From: Phosphitispora fastidiosa
Lineage (GTDB): Bacteria > Bacillota > Thermincolia > Thermincolales > UBA2595
Assembly: GCF_019008365.1 (NCBI RefSeq)
Contig: NZ_JAHHUL010000009.1
Span: forward strand, 1-64,000
Length of the DNA: 64,000 nucleotides
Direction: 5' to 3'
The notes below the pieces were generated by a model. It worked only from the letters and a program-made list of their open reading frames with translations. It made no database searches and was not told where the DNA came from. The translations under genes were made by a program, and so were the position numbers. This document shows, piece after piece, positions 30,729-64,000 of this stretch. Numbering within the stretch: position 1 is the stretch's first letter; the number at the start of each line of letters is the position of its first letter.

Positions 30729-30759
30729 AAGATAAAATTAGATATGATTAAATTTAACA

Positions 30760-30914
30760 GATAGGTGACCCGTAACAGGGTTGAAAAGGGAAGCTGGTGC
30801 AAATCCAGCACGGTCCCGCCACTGTAACAGGGAGAAACCCGCAATATATGCCACTGGGCTCATGCCCGGGAAGGCGCGGGGGACGATGAACTGGAGTCAG
30901 GAGACCTGCCTATC
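30760..30914 (+). ncRNA. cobalamin riboswitch
   Basis: P1 GATAGG (30760-30765) pairs with CCTATC (30909-30914). Conserved core: GGTGCAAATCC, CGGTCCCGCCACTGT (B12 box), GCCACTGG, GGGAAGGCG and GAGTCAGGAGACCTGCC. Senses adenosylcobalamin or a related form and controls the cbi operon downstream. Confidence 0.96.
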
Positions 30915-30987
30915 TTAGGTACACCGTTATACCTTCGATTGAAAGGCAGGTGGACATTGAAACAGTACTTTAGTTAACAGTACTTTT

Positions 30988-57313: not shown

Positions 57314-59059
57314 ATGGAAATTTTCAGCAGTGATTCCCTTGATGTTTTAGAGAGACGTTATCTCATCAAAGATTCTTCTGGAAAAGTCATTGAGACTCCT
57401 GAAGGGATGCTTAAACGTGCCGCAAAATTTGCTGCACTTCCGGAAGAAAATCAGACATATTGGGAGGAACGTTTTTTTGAATTAATGTCAGGCCTGCGGT
57501 TTTTGCCCAACAGCCCAACTCTGGCTAATGCCGGCAAACCCAATGGGCAGATGGCGGCATGTTTTGTCCTGCCTGTGCCTGATTCTATTGAAGGTATATT
57601 TGAAACCATGAAAAGAGCCGCACTGATTCATAAAACCGGAGGCGGCACGGGCTTTTCTTTTTCCAATATACGTCCCAAAGATGATATTGTTTCTTCCACC
57701 GGTGGGGTGGCATCAGGCCCGGTTCCCTTTATCAGGGCATTTAACTCTGCCACAGATGCGGTCAAACAGGGAGGAATGCGCCGGGGGGCAAACATGGCCG
57801 TACTGGACTACTGGCATCCCGATATCCTGGAATTTATTAATATGAAGGAAGAGGAGGATGTCCTCACCAACTTCAACATTTCTATAGGTGTTGATAACAG
57901 GTTTATGGATCAGGTTGTGAATAGAGGAGATATTGACCAGATAAACCCGCGCACCGGCAAAGTGAACGGCAGAACCATACCGGCAGCCACGGTATTTGAT
58001 GCGATGACTCGCGCTGCCTGGGCTAATGGTGAACCGGGAATACTGTTTTTTGACCATATAAATAAGGCCAATACCGTTCCCGGGTCTGGCCCGATGAAAG
58101 CCACCAATCCGTGTGGCGAACAGCCTCTGTTGAACTATGAAAGCTGCAACCTGGGGAGCCTTAACCTGACAGCCTTCCTTAATGAGGCGGGGGAGGGCTA
58201 CCGAAGGATAAACTGGAGCCGGCTGGCCGAGGATACTGCTGCTGCAGTGCGTTTTCTGGATAATATTATTGATGTCAACAAATATATTTTCACCGAAATT
58301 GAAAGGGTTACCAAAGGTAACCGGAAAATAGGCCTTGGGGTGATGGGTTTTGCTGATTTGCTAATCGAACTCGGGATACCATATGCGTCTATGGAAGCGC
58401 TGGAACTCATAGAAACCCTGATGGGATTTATCAGGAAAAAAGCAATGGAGGCAAGCGCTGCGCTGGGCCGTGAGAAGGGGCCGTTCCCAAATATTGAAAA
58501 AAGTGTATACAAAGGTGAGACGGTTCGGAATGCGACTGTGACTACAATAGCGCCAACAGGGACGCTGTCAATGCTGGCCGGTACGTCCAGTGGAATAGAG
58601 CCCCTGTTCGGCCTCAGCTTTGTTAAGGAAGTTCTTGAAGGCAGGAAATTTTACGTTACCAGCAGAAGCTTTGAGGAGGCGGCCAGGAAGGGTGGTTTCT
58701 GGTCAGAGGACCTGGTTCAGGAGCTGGCCCATACAGGAAGCCTTGAAGGGATAAAGGGTATTCCTGAAGATGTGCGCAGGGTATTTGCCACTGCATTTGA
58801 GATATCTCCCCAATGGCATCTAAAGGTTCAGGCGGCTTTCCAGAAACATGTAGACAACGCGGTTTCCAAGACAATTAACTTCCCTGCTGGGGCAGCTATA
58901 GCAGATATCAGGTCGGCATATCTTATGGCCTGGAAATATGGGCTTAAAGGGCTGACCATATACCGGAACGGTTCCCGGTCAAATCAGGTACTGAAATTTG
59001 CCTCCAAAGACATGGAGAAAGGTACATTGCCTGCAGGGTGTTCTACCTGTCCGGAATAA
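57314..59059 (+). CDS. nrdJ: adenosylcobalamin-dependent (class II) ribonucleotide reductase
   Basis: 581 residues, ribosome site tggaggcg. FLPNSPTLANAGKPNGQMAACFVLPVPDS (quoted in part: LPNSPTLANAG), HKTGGGTGFSFSNIRP, NPCGEQPLL, ESCNLGSLNL and TIAPTGTLSMLAGTSSGIEP are class II signatures. The C-terminal CSTCPE gives the redox cysteine pair. Reduces ribonucleotides with a B12 radical, working with or without oxygen. It depends on the cobalamin pathway in this window. The nrdG remnant near 2.8 kb suggests it is the main reductase. Confidence 0.92.
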   Translation: MEIFSSDSLDVLERRYLIKDSSGKVIETPEGMLKRAAKFAALPEENQTYWEERFFELMSGLRFLPNSPTLANAGKPNGQMAACFVLPVPDSIEGIFETMKRAALIHKTGGGTGFSFSNIRPKDDIVSSTGGVASGPVPFIRAFNSATDAVKQGGMRRGANMAVLDYWHPDILEFINMKEEEDVLTNFNISIGVDNRFMDQVVNRGDIDQINPRTGKVNGRTIPAATVFDAMTRAAWANGEPGILFFDHINKANTVPGSGPMKATNPCGEQPLLNYESCNLGSLNLTAFLNEAGEGYRRINWSRLAEDTAAAVRFLDNIIDVNKYIFTEIERVTKGNRKIGLGVMGFADLLIELGIPYASMEALELIETLMGFIRKKAMEASAALGREKGPFPNIEKSVYKGETVRNATVTTIAPTGTLSMLAGTSSGIEPLFGLSFVKEVLEGRKFYVTSRSFEEAARKGGFWSEDLVQELAHTGSLEGIKGIPEDVRRVFATAFEISPQWHLKVQAAFQKHVDNAVSKTINFPAGAAIADIRSAYLMAWKYGLKGLTIYRNGSRSNQVLKFASKDMEKGTLPAGCSTCPE

Positions 59060-59107
59060 CATGTACTTATTTACCACCGATGCCATTCAATTTCAGTTAT
59101 AACCTAG

Positions 59108-59136
59108 TTGACTTGATATTTTGTTTGTGTTAATAT
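59108..59136 (+). promoter_or_regulatory. promoter of the Cys-Leu tRNA operon
   Basis: TTGACT (59108-59113), 17-bp spacer, TAATAT (59131-59136), about 50 bp before tRNA-Cys. Confidence 0.75.
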
Positions 59137-59186
59137 ATTAGTTGTCACCGGGACAGATAGGACAAAAAAAGGTGATATTTTTACGA

Positions 59187-59261
59187 GGCGGCATGGCCAA
59201 GTGGCTAAGGCAGAGGACTGCAAATCCTTCATCCCCGGTTCGAATCCGGGTGCCGCCTCCA
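59187..59261 (+). tRNA. tRNA-Cys (GCA)
   Basis: Acceptor GGCGGCA/TGCCGCC, anticodon loop CTGCAAA, CCA encoded. Confidence 0.93.
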
Positions 59262-59284
59262 ATTTATATTTAAAAATAAAGCAT

Positions 59285-59373
59285 GCCCGAGTGGCGGAAC
59301 TGGCAGACGCACAGGACTTAAAATCCTGCGGGGCTTAAACCCCGTACCGGTTCGACCCCGGTCTCGGGCACCA
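59285..59373 (+). tRNA. tRNA-Leu (TAA)
   Basis: Acceptor GCCCGAG/CTCGGGC, long variable arm, anticodon loop CTTAAAA, CCA encoded. Its 3' end recurs in degraded form at 63820, so it is a likely integration site. Confidence 0.93.
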
Positions 59374-59374
59374 C
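59360..59374 (+). other. left attachment-like site (tRNA-Leu 3' end)
   Basis: GGTCTCGGGCACCAC matches GGTCTCGGGCATCAC at 63820-63834 with one change. Both copies are followed by a similar AAGCC..GGGGCTTTTTT terminator. Confidence 0.55.
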
Positions 59375-59381
59375 GATTATC

Positions 59382-59403
59382 AAGCCTTGAGGGGCTTTTT
59401 TTT
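59382..59403 (+). terminator. terminator of the Cys-Leu tRNA operon
   Basis: AAGCC-TTGAGG-GGCTT followed by six more T. Between here and 59630 the sequence is AT-rich and no gene is visible. Confidence 0.7.
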
Positions 59404-59633
59404 ACTTTCGGAGGAAAGCCTGAAATAGTGGATTGGTGATAAATTGGTGACAGAAGATGTTCAAATAGTAAATAAAAATTAAATATGCTCATAAAATAGA
59501 TAATAGTGTAAGTGTTTTTTATGATTTTTCTGGCAATAATTTAAAAGAAAACCCAATATTTTCTAAGGATACTCGCCGGTTTGGTAGAATTGCCCACATC
59601 GACAAAATTCGACATACATCCTGCGCCAACTTA

Positions 59634-59642
59634 TGGTATAAT
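59634..59642 (+). promoter_or_regulatory. extended -10 promoter of the Panacea operon
   Basis: TGGTATAAT (59634-59642). A GTAACAGTAAC stretch just behind (about 59650) may be an operator. The untranslated leader to 59773 is about 125 bp. Confidence 0.45.
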
Positions 59643-59772
59643 TTGACTGTAACAGTAACTTTTGCATTGATTTGTCAGTTTTGCCTGGGTGATGTCTTAG
59701 TGAAGGCATTGAAATGGGGTGATGAGTCAGGTGGCAAAAGTTTATCGCTTTAAAGCTAAGGAGGAATTAAAA

Positions 59773-60231
59773 ATGGTTACAGTATTTGATGTAGCCGACT
59801 ACTTTCTTTCCCGTGTTGAACTTGATTCCGGGAGTGTAATGACACATTTGAAACTTCAAAAATTATGCTATTACGTTCAAGCTTGGCATTTAGTTTTTGA
59901 AGATAACCCGATGTTTGAAGAGAAGTTTCAAGCCTGGGCTCACGGACCAGCTTGCCCGGAACTGTTTAGCAAATTCAAGGATTATAGATGGAACCCTATA
60001 CCGCCACCGGATGAATTCGATTCATCTATTTTTAGCGGTACGGAGATTGAAACTATTGAGGCGGTTTGGGAAGCATATGGTCAGTTTGATGGCAAGTACC
60101 TTGAGGATTTAACTCACCAGGAAGATCCTTGGATAATGGCGCGAGGGGACTGCCCGCCGGGAGAGAAATGTGAAAACGTTATCAGTTGGAAATCTATGAA
60201 AGAGTATTATACAAGGCTGCAAAATGCGTAA
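59773..60231 (+). CDS. Panacea-domain (DUF4065/SocA-like) antitoxin
   Basis: 152 residues from ATG 59773 behind aaggaggaattaa; a longer in-frame start at 59719 covers the ribosome site. VFDVADYFLSR, MTHLKLQKLCYYVQAWHL and FQAWAHGPACPELF are the hallmarks of the Panacea domain. PanA proteins neutralise very different toxins encoded next to them. The next gene overlaps by 8 bp. Confidence 0.82.
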   Translation: MVTVFDVADYFLSRVELDSGSVMTHLKLQKLCYYVQAWHLVFEDNPMFEEKFQAWAHGPACPELFSKFKDYRWNPIPPPDEFDSSIFSGTEIETIEAVWEAYGQFDGKYLEDLTHQEDPWIMARGDCPPGEKCENVISWKSMKEYYTRLQNA

Positions 60232-60649
60232 TATAAAAAGGCCTAAGCCTAAACAGAGCAAAATAACTGAAAAGGCTATTATTGCCCACAACATTGATAC
60301 AGGGAATAATAACCCTGTGTTTTCTTTTAGGCATGTTTGTGAGAATCACTGCCTTTTATCTACTTGGCAAGCCGGTGAGTTGACTGAGCTTCTGGGTACA
60401 TTTAAATTGATGGAATCTCTCACGTGGAACCAATTGGTGACAAATCGCCATAAAGGCCTCGATTTTAGGAAAGAGGACAATTATACCAAACCGTTGCCAC
60501 CGGTAGTGTCACCTGATGTGGATGTATGCCGGGTTAAAGTCTGTGAGAAGAAAAGGTTATGGGGGTATAGAGCAGGTCAGGTGTTTAGAATATTGTGGTT
60601 TGACCGTCTTCATGAAGTTGTTCCTTATCATAAACAAAAGAGAAATTAA
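60224..60649 (+). CDS. putative toxin partner of the Panacea antitoxin
   Basis: 141 residues, ATG 60224 inside the end of the antitoxin gene. Basic N-terminus (MRNIKRPKPKQSK), then SFRHVCENHCLLSTWQAGEL and near the end LWGYRAGQVFRILWFDRLHEVVP, a motif seen in small phage- and toxin-linked proteins. I cannot name the activity. The pairing and a terminator right behind it suggest a two-gene PanAT-type toxin-antitoxin operon. Confidence 0.55.
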   Translation: MRNIKRPKPKQSKITEKAIIAHNIDTGNNNPVFSFRHVCENHCLLSTWQAGELTELLGTFKLMESLTWNQLVTNRHKGLDFRKEDNYTKPLPPVVSPDVDVCRVKVCEKKRLWGYRAGQVFRILWFDRLHEVVPYHKQKRN

Positions 60650-60657
60650 AAGGCAAA

Positions 60658-60687
60658 AGACCGGGTTATCCCCGGTCTATTTTTTTA
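60658..60687 (+). terminator. terminator of the Panacea operon
   Basis: AGACCGGG-TTATC-CCCGGTCT followed by ATTTTTTT. Confidence 0.85.
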
Positions 60688-60702
60688 TATAACGAAAACC
60701 AA

Positions 60703-60723
60703 ACCACCCGCTGAGCGGGTGGT
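60703..60723 (+). repeat. left-end hairpin of the IS-like element
   Basis: Nine-base arms with a TGA loop. Resembles the left-end imperfect palindromes recognised by Y1 (HUH) transposases. Confidence 0.5.
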
Positions 60724-60989
60724 CATGATTTGGGCTCCGTGCACCTAATTCAAACCAACTATCTATTCAGGTTATACTTCAACCTCGAAAAGCAGCAACT
60801 TAACCCTGAAAAAGAGGAATTTTGATGGATTTATAAAATTATGTATATATTGGTCAAATTAACCAGACCTATCAATAAATAATAGACTTATTCTACCTTT
60901 AACAATCTATCTTCGATATGGACTAGCCTACGTATATGGGGTGACATTGAATATCTTAAAATGCTGCGTGATGAAGGGGGGCATTAGTA

Positions 60990-61349
60990 ATGAGCTTTGC
61001 CGAATTCATGGAGGAATATCGAAAAAATTTAACAGATGCATCTACTCTTGAGGAACTACTCCAAGAAGCGAAGCAGAACCACAGAGTACAAAAACTATTG
61101 CCGATCTACGTATTGAAAGATAAAGACACCTTTAATAGCATGTTGGAATTAGCAAATAGAGATTCCTTTGCCAGGAAACTTGTTGCACATGCTCGTATGA
61201 CCGTGAAGACTTTAGAAAGAAACAAAAATACGAAATCATTCGGAATGAAAAGGTTACTTGGACATTTGGCCAATGTAGCCAGGATGTCATTGCCAAGTGA
61301 CAATCTGCCAGCCCCGGGAGCTAATACGCTCTGCCCGGGGACGGGCTGA
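60990..61349 (+). CDS. hypothetical protein inside the IS-like element
   Basis: 119 residues, ATG 60990 behind aaggggggcatt, 3 bases after the stop of a short frame ending in EYLKMLRDEGGH. Helical, charged, starts MSFAEFMEEYRKN. The last 20 residues read through the omega-RNA-like region (NLPAPGANTLCPGTG), so the original C-terminus was probably replaced by the element end. No family recognised. Confidence 0.4.
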   Translation: MSFAEFMEEYRKNLTDASTLEELLQEAKQNHRVQKLLPIYVLKDKDTFNSMLELANRDSFARKLVAHARMTVKTLERNKNTKSFGMKRLLGHLANVARMSLPSDNLPAPGANTLCPGTG

Positions 61350-61440
61350 TGGCACAGCCCTAAGCTTGGGGTCATACTCCGATACCAGAAATGGACTTCG
61401 GTTTAATCACCCAAGAATCCCCTGCCTTTAGGCATGGGGA
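61296..61440 (+). ncRNA. omega-RNA-like right end of an IS605/TnpB element (candidate)
   Basis: CCCCGGG/CCCGGGG (61312-61318 with 61334-61340), then GGGCTGATGGCACAGCCC, then AAGCTTGGGGTCATACTCC and a terminal hairpin. This order resembles the guide-RNA scaffolds encoded at the 3' end of TnpB transposons. tnpB itself is absent here. Confidence 0.45.
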
Positions 61441-61443
61441 GTG

Positions 61444-62421
61444 TCAAGTGGGTTCAACATAGATGGGAGGAACTTTTGCCCATCCCTTCATTTTTCCATA
61501 CTTAATCATATCATCTTGTATTTCTAACTCAGCCTTATATAGGTCTAAAAAGATCTTGCGTAAAGCGTCATTTCTCAGAGTATCTATTACAGCCCTAATA
61601 TGAGCATCTATCGAATCATCTATGCCTTTGTAAACCACCTGATACATGAACCTATCCTCTAAGGTCTCAGGGTCTATAGGAACCTGTAGGGATGCAGGAG
61701 GTCTTTCCGGCATCTGGACTTCATACTTTAATGCTTCCTGTTCCATCATTTGGATCTGTTTTTTAAGAACATTTACCCCTTTGGTCAATAATAACTTAAA
61801 ATCTAAATCATGCGCAAAAACCAGGAAGAACGCAGTTAATTGGCTTTGAATATATCTGTCATTTATATTGTGCCAAATATGATACGCTTCACTTGTAGAA
61901 AGAGATTCTTTTACCCCTTGTTTTGAGGTCTTGTAAGCAGGTGCAACTTCTTCCCACCCTTTTATTTTGCCAAATTTATAAAGAGTTTCAAAATCATCAA
62001 CATGGGACAACAAAAACTTTTTAAACAGATTTCTAATGTTATCGTTAGTAAGGGTATTTCGCACTGAACTGTTTAGAGAATTCATTTCTGATACCATATC
62101 TGCGTACATCCTGTGGTAAATAAACTTGTCAGTAATCTCATCTACGCGAGTTGAAGTCTTTATATCACTGGCAGGTCTTGAAGGGACTTTTATCTTAAAC
62201 TTTTTTGCGGCTTTTTCAAGTTGTTCAGTCTGTGTTTGAAAGTCTTTTAACAATACTTCCAAGACTATTCCAAAATCTCTGTCATGCACAAAATTTATCA
62301 GCATTTGGACTGCTTCGATACTGTTATACCTTGCTCTTAGTAAGTTCCATAAATTAAATGCGGTCTGCACATCGATTTGCTCCAAATTGGAAGTAGATTT
62401 CTTGAAAATTGAAATATCCAT
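61444..62421 (-). CDS. DUF3231-type tandem protein (spore-coat/ferritin-like)
   Basis: 325 residues. Two related halves of about 160 residues: the first ends FGKIKGWEEVAPAY, the second YGKMKGWAKVPPIY; both contain AFxLWxxL/AYHIWHNI and HDRDF/HDLDF. Helical throughout, as in the DUF3231 family found in spore-forming Firmicutes. Ribosome site ggagtgaa. The TGA stop (61444-61446) is directly at the edge of the IS-like element; the C-terminus seems intact. Confidence 0.68.
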   Translation of the reverse strand: MDISIFKKSTSNLEQIDVQTAFNLWNLLRARYNSIEAVQMLINFVHDRDFGIVLEVLLKDFQTQTEQLEKAAKKFKIKVPSRPASDIKTSTRVDEITDKFIYHRMYADMVSEMNSLNSSVRNTLTNDNIRNLFKKFLLSHVDDFETLYKFGKIKGWEEVAPAYKTSKQGVKESLSTSEAYHIWHNINDRYIQSQLTAFFLVFAHDLDFKLLLTKGVNVLKKQIQMMEQEALKYEVQMPERPPASLQVPIDPETLEDRFMYQVVYKGIDDSIDAHIRAVIDTLRNDALRKIFLDLYKAELEIQDDMIKYGKMKGWAKVPPIYVEPT

Positions 62422-62528: not shown

Positions 62529-62623
62529 ATTTGTATTCCTTGCAAACTAGCCTTTTTACCTTTAATATATAATCAAAGGATGTGAATCAATGAAAAAGCC
62601 TGTTGATTTTGAAAAAACGGCGA
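62529..62623 (+). repeat. direct repeat unit A (leader plus first codons)
   Basis: From ATTTGTATTCCTTGC through the start of the next gene. Repeats at 63906-64000 with an offset of 1377 bp and few changes; continues beyond the window at the second place. Confidence 0.85.
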
Positions 62624-62808
62624 CAGAAAACAAGGCTAAGTGTCTTGCAGCTCTGTCTTATCTAGCCGGTTCACGTAAACCCCGACGCAAGCCGCGCAGT
62701 GCTGAAGAGAGCATTGGTATTACCATTGCCACTGCGGAAATAGTTCGGAATGCTTATGAAACAGGACGCCTAGTTAAGAAAACTCCAAAAGGATTTGTTC
62801 TTAAATGA
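62590..62808 (+). CDS. small basic protein, first gene of a nucleotidyltransferase module
   Basis: 72 residues behind aaaggatgtg. Begins MKKPVDFEKTATENK. Very basic middle (SRKPRRKPRSAEE), then a helix IGITIATAEIVRNAYETGRL and KKTPKGFVLK. Overlaps the next gene by 4 bp (ATGA). A paralog begins at 63967. Perhaps the antitoxin or an RNA-binding partner; unproven. Confidence 0.6.
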   Translation: MKKPVDFEKTATENKAKCLAALSYLAGSRKPRRKPRSAEESIGITIATAEIVRNAYETGRLVKKTPKGFVLK

Positions 62809-63383
62809 GTTTAAAAGAAGATATTTTAGCATGTTTGCAAATACAGGACAAAAATAAACGGCAGATTAGTATTGCGGGTATCATAACAAAATCCCTTGAA
62901 CCTTTGGGCATCATTCCGGTTGTTGTAGGCGGAGCCGCAGTTGAATTTTATACTTTAGGGCAGTATGCAACTATGGATATAGATTTTGTTGGGACTATTA
63001 ACAACGAAATGAAAGAAGTAATGGCAAGCTTGGGTTTTGAAAGGGAAGGTCGCTACTGGAGAATACCTGGCACAGACATTATGGTTGAATTTCCCTCAGA
63101 CAAGTTGGTTGGATCAATGGATAAAGTTCAGCCGGTCGAACACAATGGACAGCAAGCTTACTACATAGGAATAGACGATTTAATTCTTAACCGCGTCCAG
63201 GAAGCGAAACACTGGAATGATATGGGCTCAAAGGAATGGGCCAGAACGTTAATGGTGGCTCATTATGATGATATCGATTGGAGTTATTGTCATAAAAATG
63301 CCAGCAAATTTGGTTGTAGAGATAAGCTTGAAGAAATACAGAAAGAAGCAAAGAAAATAAAAAGGCAGATGGATGAAAAATAA
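62805..63383 (+). CDS. DUF6036-like nucleotidyltransferase-fold protein
   Basis: 192 residues. VVVGGAAVEFYTLGQYATMDIDF holds the GG motif and the DxD (D-I-D) of NTase-fold proteins (core GGAAVEFY, MDIDF). Then EFPSDKLVGSMDKV and a C-terminal helical part. Coupled with the small basic gene before it. This pairing resembles toxin-antitoxin or abortive-infection modules of the AbiEii/MNT kind. Confidence 0.68.
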   Translation: MSLKEDILACLQIQDKNKRQISIAGIITKSLEPLGIIPVVVGGAAVEFYTLGQYATMDIDFVGTINNEMKEVMASLGFEREGRYWRIPGTDIMVEFPSDKLVGSMDKVQPVEHNGQQAYYIGIDDLILNRVQEAKHWNDMGSKEWARTLMVAHYDDIDWSYCHKNASKFGCRDKLEEIQKEAKKIKRQMDEK

Positions 63384-63475
63384 TACTTGGTAACACTTAA
63401 CAGCACTACTTTAAACATAGAGAATCAAGAACTCGCGTTTGTTTTAGCAATACGCTATCCGAGGGGGCCAACTTG

Positions 63476-63784
63476 ATGCCTATTTATGATGAGACTATTC
63501 AAAATGTAAAAAGGCAAATAGTTAACAAATTCCATCCCGTAGACGTTATTCTTTTTGGTTCACATGCCAAGGGGTTGGTTAGAAAAAGCAGTGATATAGA
63601 TATTTGTGTAATAAAAGACACTCAAAATAAAAGGGAATTAATTCAGGATATTTTACTGGAGATTGACTCTGATATCGATTTAGATGTGATAGTGTATACC
63701 CCGGCGCAATGGGAAAAGTATAAAGATGATAAAACGATGTTTGCACATGTAATTAATAAGACGGGGGTGAGCATTGTTGGTTGA
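63476..63784 (+). CDS. MNT-type minimal nucleotidyltransferase
   Basis: 102 residues from ATG 63476 (gaggggg upstream; TTG 63473 possible). GSHAKGLVRKSSDIDICV is the GSxxxG-x(n)-DxD active site, and a third acid lies in DLDVIV. MNT proteins act as antitoxins that AMPylate HEPN ribonucleases. The expected HEPN gene overlaps its end but is cut short. Confidence 0.85.
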   Translation: MPIYDETIQNVKRQIVNKFHPVDVILFGSHAKGLVRKSSDIDICVIKDTQNKRELIQDILLEIDSDIDLDVIVYTPAQWEKYKDDKTMFAHVINKTGVSIVG

Positions 63785-63823
63785 TACAAAAAGGTATAAA
63801 GACTGGCGTGACCAATCCAGGTC
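63777..63823 (+). pseudogene. 5' remnant of a HEPN-domain gene
   Basis: From TTG 63777 the reading LVDTKRYKDWRDQS fits the usual N-terminus of HEPN partners. It then runs into the duplicated tRNA-Leu end. The frame stays open to 63923, but only the first 14 residues look genuine. Confidence 0.5.
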
Positions 63824-63863
63824 TCGGGCATCACTTGAAATAAAGCCTTTAGGGGCTTTTTTA
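63820..63863 (+). other. right attachment-like site: degraded tRNA-Leu 3' end plus terminator
   Basis: GGTCTCGGGCATCAC (63820-63834) and AAGCCTTTAGGGGCTTTTTT (63843-63862) copy the 3' end of tRNA-Leu(TAA) and its terminator at 59360-59403. The rest of the tRNA is absent. Confidence 0.6.
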
Positions 63864-63905
63864 TTTTGCGCCATGGATGCAGAAAAAATGAAATTGCATC
63901 CCGTT

Positions 63906-64000
63906 ATTTGTATTCCTTGCTAACAGGCCCTTTTAACAGTAATATATAATCAAAGGATGTGAATCAATGAAAACGCCTGTTGATTTTGAAAAAACGGCGA
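63906..64000 (+). repeat. direct repeat unit A, second copy
   Basis: Matches 62529-62623 closely. Runs to the window edge. Confidence 0.85.
63967..64000 (+). CDS. paralog of the 72-residue basic protein (partial)
   Basis: ATG 63967 behind aaaggatgtg starts MKTPVDFEKTA, differing from the gene at 62590 by one residue so far. Cut by the window end. Confidence 0.7.
   Translation, partial: MKTPVDFEKTA

Follow-up and report, generated by a model that had tools for sequence, protein, structure and literature searches.

A stranded IS605-type right end carrying a predicted omega-RNA scaffold in Phosphitispora fastidiosa

Near the end of a 64,000-nucleotide stretch of the Phosphitispora fastidiosa genome (contig NZ_JAHHUL010000009.1, positions 1 to 64,000; hereafter the window), a GC-rich segment resembles the guide-RNA scaffold of a TnpB transposon, and a hairpin of the IS200 type lies to its left. 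Are these the two ends of one element that has lost its genes, and could the scaffold still guide a nuclease? The original prediction treated 60690-61443 as a single element, an orphan omega-RNA-like scaffold after loss of tnpB. We found that this description holds for 61305-61447 and fails for the rest of the interval. The best explanation, in which taken as a whole we have high confidence, is that 61305-61447 is all that is left of an IS605-type (IS608-like) element: its right end, stranded on its own. As predicted, 60690-61443 contains neither tnpA nor tnpB.

Limits and relatives of the right end

A search of the whole host genome showed that 61295-61447 recurs at C1:194146-194298 (97%), and that the last 48 nt of the right end recur at C11:51851-51898. 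Among related genomes, the right end occurs in nearly identical form in the sibling species G002 (contigs C33 and C35) and in G003 (C2, C36 and C52), and G012 holds many copies at 86-87% identity. The segment shared as a unit is 61305-61447 (143 nt, plus strand), a complete IS605/IS608-like right end containing the omega-RNA scaffold: over 142-143 nt it is 97.9-98.6% identical to host C1:194146-194288 and to the G002 C33 and C35 copies, and it scores 165.9 bits with a covariance model that has the window copy itself among its sequences. Because the family copies all finish in GTGTCAA or a close variant and the sequence that follows differs from copy to copy, we set the border at 61447, not at 61443; a guide following it, as had been proposed, would start at 61448.

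The IS608 code comprises C_L TTAC, G_L AAAG, G_R GAAT and C_R TCAA (PMC5934647), and the window contains its right-hand parts on the plus strand. GAAT at 61415-61418, read directly as the TnpA right guide (G_R of IS608), is unchanged in 19 aligned relatives. An imperfect palindrome follows at 61419-61441, the terminal right-end hairpin CCCCTGCC-TTTA-GGCATGGGG, which was found by folding and is helix 4 of the covariation analysis described below. The right cleavage site TCAA at 61444-61447 is the transposon boundary, where all full-copy matches stop. A left end made of TTAC, AAAG and a palindrome was absent from the window to the left of 61305, where the DNA is host locus. The sister copies on host contigs C1 and C11 do have TTAC/AAAG left ends, starting TTAC/CATAAG...TAAAGCCCC-hairpin.

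The family is intact elsewhere, in the order left end, tnpA (Y1), tnpB, right end. Contig C2 of G012 carries, one after another, tnpA (Y1_Tnp, PF01797, 2.3e-40), tnpB (NF040570, guided_TnpB, 1.3e-58) and this right end, and the nearest solved structures to this TnpB are Cas12f and TnpB proteins. A plasmid of B. carboniphilus carries tnpA and tnpB with the family right end, and in P. acidaminophilum tnpB stops 22 nt before the right-end match. The full-length tnpB elements with the same ends that the original prediction had proposed to look for thus exist in other genomes (G012 and the B. carboniphilus plasmid), whereas in the host genome the further right-end copies are all broken; at host C1, as at G002 C33 and C35, a broken tnpB precedes the right end. 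Similar ends thus do occur elsewhere, contrary to one of the conditions that would have spoken against the original prediction. In intact relatives such an end has two roles. The DNA serves TnpA as right end through the GAAT guide, the hairpin and TCAA, where cleavage occurs; the transcript serves TnpB as guide scaffold, and the flanking sequence provides the guide.

The host locus, its junctions and the left hairpin

How the right end came to lie where it does is seen best in the sibling species. Locus L047 of G002 matches window 57500-61304 at 96.9% (60650-61304 at about 97%) and has neither the right end nor the gene that follows it. Collinearity extends to 61304 and is restored from 62507 on, and the segment 61305-62506, made up of the right end and a DUF3231 gene, replaces 393 bp of the sibling locus. 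Since the sibling carries 60650-61304 but no right end at this locus, 60690-61443 is not a single element, and the element part starts at 61305.

The junction at 61304/61305 joins a host gene to the transposon right end. The sibling reads ...GTGACAAT/GTCGTAATGG at this point, the element ...GCGATAGT/CTGCCAGCC and the window ...GTGACAAT/CTGCCAGCC, an illegitimate recombination with about 1 nt of microhomology. The gene that was cut is intact in G002 as a 155-aa frame (MRFAEFMEEY...NLVGTRR; L047 2825-3292) and has a 154-aa homologue in G003; its first 105 codons remain in the window (60990-61304, plus strand). A 119-residue frame reading into the scaffold had been noticed in the original prediction. 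It is present (60990-61349) but is a chimera of residues 1-105 of the 155-aa gene product and 14 codons of transposon end.

Immediately upstream, IWGDIEYLKMLRDEG (60930-60988, plus strand) is a decayed C-terminus remnant of a DUF6036-type nucleotidyltransferase gene, recognized from a DNA-level match of 60930-61270 to G003 L048 2815-3152. The nucleotidyltransferase is intact in G003 (L048 2372-2875; PF19502, 1.5e-38), upstream of the homologue of the 155-aa gene. This arrangement suggests that the broken gene at 60990 and the DUF6036 nucleotidyltransferase upstream of it are a decayed two-gene, toxin-antitoxin-like unit. Several other features of the window were recorded. Two small nucleotidyltransferase genes lie near the junction at 62805-63383 and 63473-63784 (weak DUF6036; NTP_transf_2/MntA-like). 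A gene pair at 59719-60649 encodes a SocA/Panacea-domain antitoxin (PF13274, 5.1e-23) and a MAG6450-family protein (NF046006), the latter likely the toxin partner. Repeats at 63809-64000, the right edge of the window, are shared with an intergenic stretch of the sibling and with 62529-62620, a local duplicated segment, and a Cobalamin riboswitch lies at 30746-30927 (Rfam RF00174, 127.8 bits).

The left hairpin has a separate origin. The predicted IS200-type hairpin exists (60702-60724 by folding) but belongs to another, tnpA-only IS200: it contains an exact 32-nt copy of an IS200 right end at host C11:81112-81143, which sits 0.2 kb downstream of tnpA in a tnpA-only IS200 at C11:80565-80921. 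It also occurs at the sibling locus L047, which is without the IS605 right end. The bases before it, ATAACGAAAACC, resemble the left tip ATAAACGAAAACC of the host IS200. By this comparison, 60690-60731 is probably a solo IS200 scar, lying outside the IS605-type element, in which the left tip ATAACGAAAACC would be fused to the right end CAAACCACCCGCTGAGCGGGTGGTCATGATT. The left hairpin belongs to an older, unrelated IS200 and is not the partner of the right end at 61447.

On the other side of the right end, the DUF3231 gene (61444-62421, minus strand; 325 aa; PF11553, 5.6e-23) takes its stop codon from the transposon, the TGA at 61444-61446 on the minus strand being supplied by TCAA. Five homologous DUF3231 genes were found, none of which is the donor; the closest, L116 (69% identity), stops at the same residue and fixed the stop position. 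If TTAC is set before 61448, an in-frame stop, ...YVEPT-TAA, arises at the position where L116 ends. At the DNA level the gene is absent from the sibling and from the searched family members and is foreign to the sibling locus. A search for a second DUF3231 site with an empty TTAC gave no full match in the host or in 100 related genomes.

These observations make a history in two steps likely. The element would have inserted 3' of a TTAC within the DUF3231 stop codon (empty site ...CCCACGTAA). In a later illegitimate rearrangement, codon 105 of the resident 155-codon gene would have become fused to the right end and the adjoining DUF3231 gene; the rest of the element (left end, tnpA and tnpB) would have been lost in the process, along with the final 50 codons of the resident gene and the stretch beyond them. 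The junctions are visible in the comparison with the sibling. We infer the order of the two events and, since our search found no closely related strain with the DUF3231 gene, either with or without the element, the insertion at TTAC as well.

The omega-RNA scaffold and its possible function

Does the stranded end still have the structure of a guide RNA? We aligned 15 right ends from six genomes and three plasmids and scored 22 base pairs. In their common fold 96.1% of cells were paired, and both sides of a pair had changed in 62 cells; shuffles gave 20.2 such cells and slid controls 1-17. The strongest covariation was in stem 1 (CCCCGGGAGC...GCTCTGCCCGGGG, 61312-61340, plus strand), where 7 of 10 pairs had compensatory changes, with variants such as CCCCGGG/CCCGGGG, CCTAGAG/CTCTAGG, CCTAAGC/GCTTAGG and CCCATAC/GTATGGG. 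The window copy has its stems intact and folds with z = -3.3 against shuffles. The original likening of this end to a TnpB guide-RNA scaffold is thus borne out by folding and by stems that covary in 15 relatives. In relatives, this conserved, covarying structure lies directly 3' of tnpB and extends up to the transposon border, as an omega-RNA does. Rfam matched no family to the right end, whether searched at the gathering threshold or with E values up to 10.

We conclude that 61305-61447 is a predicted omega-RNA scaffold. The 143 nt in the window could be a complete one, because the ISDra2 omega-RNA stays active when trimmed to a scaffold of about 116 nt (PMC10097598). The window scaffold is nearly identical to its relatives, which we attribute to the youth of the relic; decay of RNA function is not visible from sequence.

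The would-be guide is GTGGGTTCAACATAGATGGG (61448-61467, plus strand), and the TTAC-flanked sequence that corresponds to it is TTACGTGGGTTCAACATAGATG. A search with TTAC and the first 11 guide bases, allowing one mismatch, found no target in the host genome, and viral contigs held no exact target. Promoter searches gave matches at chance level and no strong promoter. The host assembly has no cognate tnpB apart from the fragment on C1, although it is a draft of 239 contigs and may have missed a multi-copy tnpB. A cognate tnpA is likewise absent: the tnpA genes present are two of the IS200 type at 30% identity and a fragment on C18. The contig of the window has no tnpB-family match. As TnpB partners we considered and rejected a contig-edge frame on C10 (36% identity over 125 aa, in the C-terminal half), a broken tnpB of another group on C8, and tnpB-like frames on C16 and C18, which are fragments; the resident IS200-type TnpAs, at just 30% identity, were set aside as well.

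Excision by TnpA in the IS200/IS605 family needs the left end. The window copy has none, so it cannot be excised and is immobile. Nor can it direct cleavage in the absence of a cognate TnpB. With the left end and the cognate TnpB both missing, the right end is most likely inert.

Other readings of the locus have to be weighed against a stranded right end. The original prediction had suggested a non-autonomous element moved in trans; such a mini-element (PATE or MITE) would run from the hairpin at 60700 to the right end at 61447 and be mobilized by a resident TnpA. Hairpins do lie at both edges of 60690-61447, and IS200/IS605 mini-elements exist even within this family (five of about 384 bp in G012, one of 204 bp on host C11). 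The sibling refutes the unit, however, since it has the whole of 60650-61304, left hairpin included, and lacks the right end there. Moreover, that hairpin is itself a right end, belonging to an unrelated IS200; a TTAC/AAAG left end is missing; everything left of 61305 is host DNA that predates the insertion; and neither the host nor the relatives yielded the 754-bp unit a second time. We regard this reading as highly improbable. A chance GC-rich structure that is no transposon end at all has the absence of an Rfam match in its favor and nothing else; it is refuted by dispersed copies that are about 98% identical and lie in different flanks, by the covariation and by the position next to tnpB in intact relatives, and we give it practically no credence.

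It is also very unlikely that the scaffold is a retained or domesticated guide RNA, another suggestion of the original prediction. Read-through from the truncated gene would then still produce an omega-RNA, whose guide from 61448 would be used by a TnpB loaded in trans, encoded by a sister element that either enters the cell or is missing from the assembly, and directed to uninterrupted DUF3231 copies or other TTAC sites. The scaffold is structurally complete with its stems intact, and by the ISDra2 precedent 143 nt would suffice (PMC10097598), but a young relic would look intact anyway. Against this reading are the lack of a cognate tnpA and of a cognate TnpB beyond the C1 fragment, the other tnpB-like frames being distant or broken; the lack of a TTAC target within one mismatch in the host and of an exact viral one; promoters at chance level; and the absence of a counterpart at this locus in the sibling. 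A stranded and most likely inert right end remains the preferred reading.

Known systems and the wider family

The window right end is like those of IS608-like IS200/IS605 elements in its GAAT, hairpin and TCAA, with TTAC and AAAG in its sister copies, but it retains just the right 143 nt, without left end, tnpA or tnpB. It shares with ISDra2-type omega-RNA (reRNA) a structured segment that in the family lies directly after tnpB, reaches the transposon border and takes the flank as guide; its scaffold sequence, in contrast, forms a family of its own, without an Rfam match, and the predicted RNA of the window has no tnpB. Like PATEs and MITEs of IS200/IS605 it is short, geneless and keeps the right-end palindrome, although these need both ends and 60690-61447 has no dispersed copies. 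Unlike TldR-like domesticated TnpB/omega-RNA systems, it has no tnpB-derived gene beside the guide, and the guide has no TTAC-flanked host target within one mismatch and no exact target in viral contigs. IS200 with tnpA only explains the hairpin at 60690-60731; to the right end at 61447 it is unrelated. Element family, omega-RNA and decay are all of known kinds, and the window relic is ordinary.

Other reduced forms were seen in the family. G012 has five near-identical mini-elements of about 384 bp (L053 2748-3130, L054 2834-3217, L141 136-519, L142 2305-2688 and L143 1691-2074), each combining a 54-nt left tip with the omega-RNA right end at its full 143 nt. They lack tnpA and tnpB, and their flanks, hence their guides, differ; a full copy with tnpA and tnpB is in the same genome. 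These five are genuine omega-RNA-bearing mini-transposons and are less common than a relic like that in the window. The B. methanolicus plasmids pBM20 and pBM19 (L107 2340-2599; L109) carry the family right end, and of tnpB a C-terminal stub is all that remains there; these natural-plasmid right ends are another orphan omega-RNA scaffold. In the host, C11:51851-52054 (L013 3852-4055) is a 204-bp TTAC...TCAA PATE that has the left end and terminal hairpin, with scaffold and genes deleted.

The relic shows that the scaffold of an omega-RNA can persist after the nuclease gene is gone, and that a neighbouring hairpin without a partner can pass for the opposite end of a transposon. Should orphan scaffolds turn out to load TnpB in trans, they would act as free guide RNAs, a step from TnpB to CRISPR-like systems, and the covarying scaffold alignment of 15 sequences makes the trans-loading idea testable.
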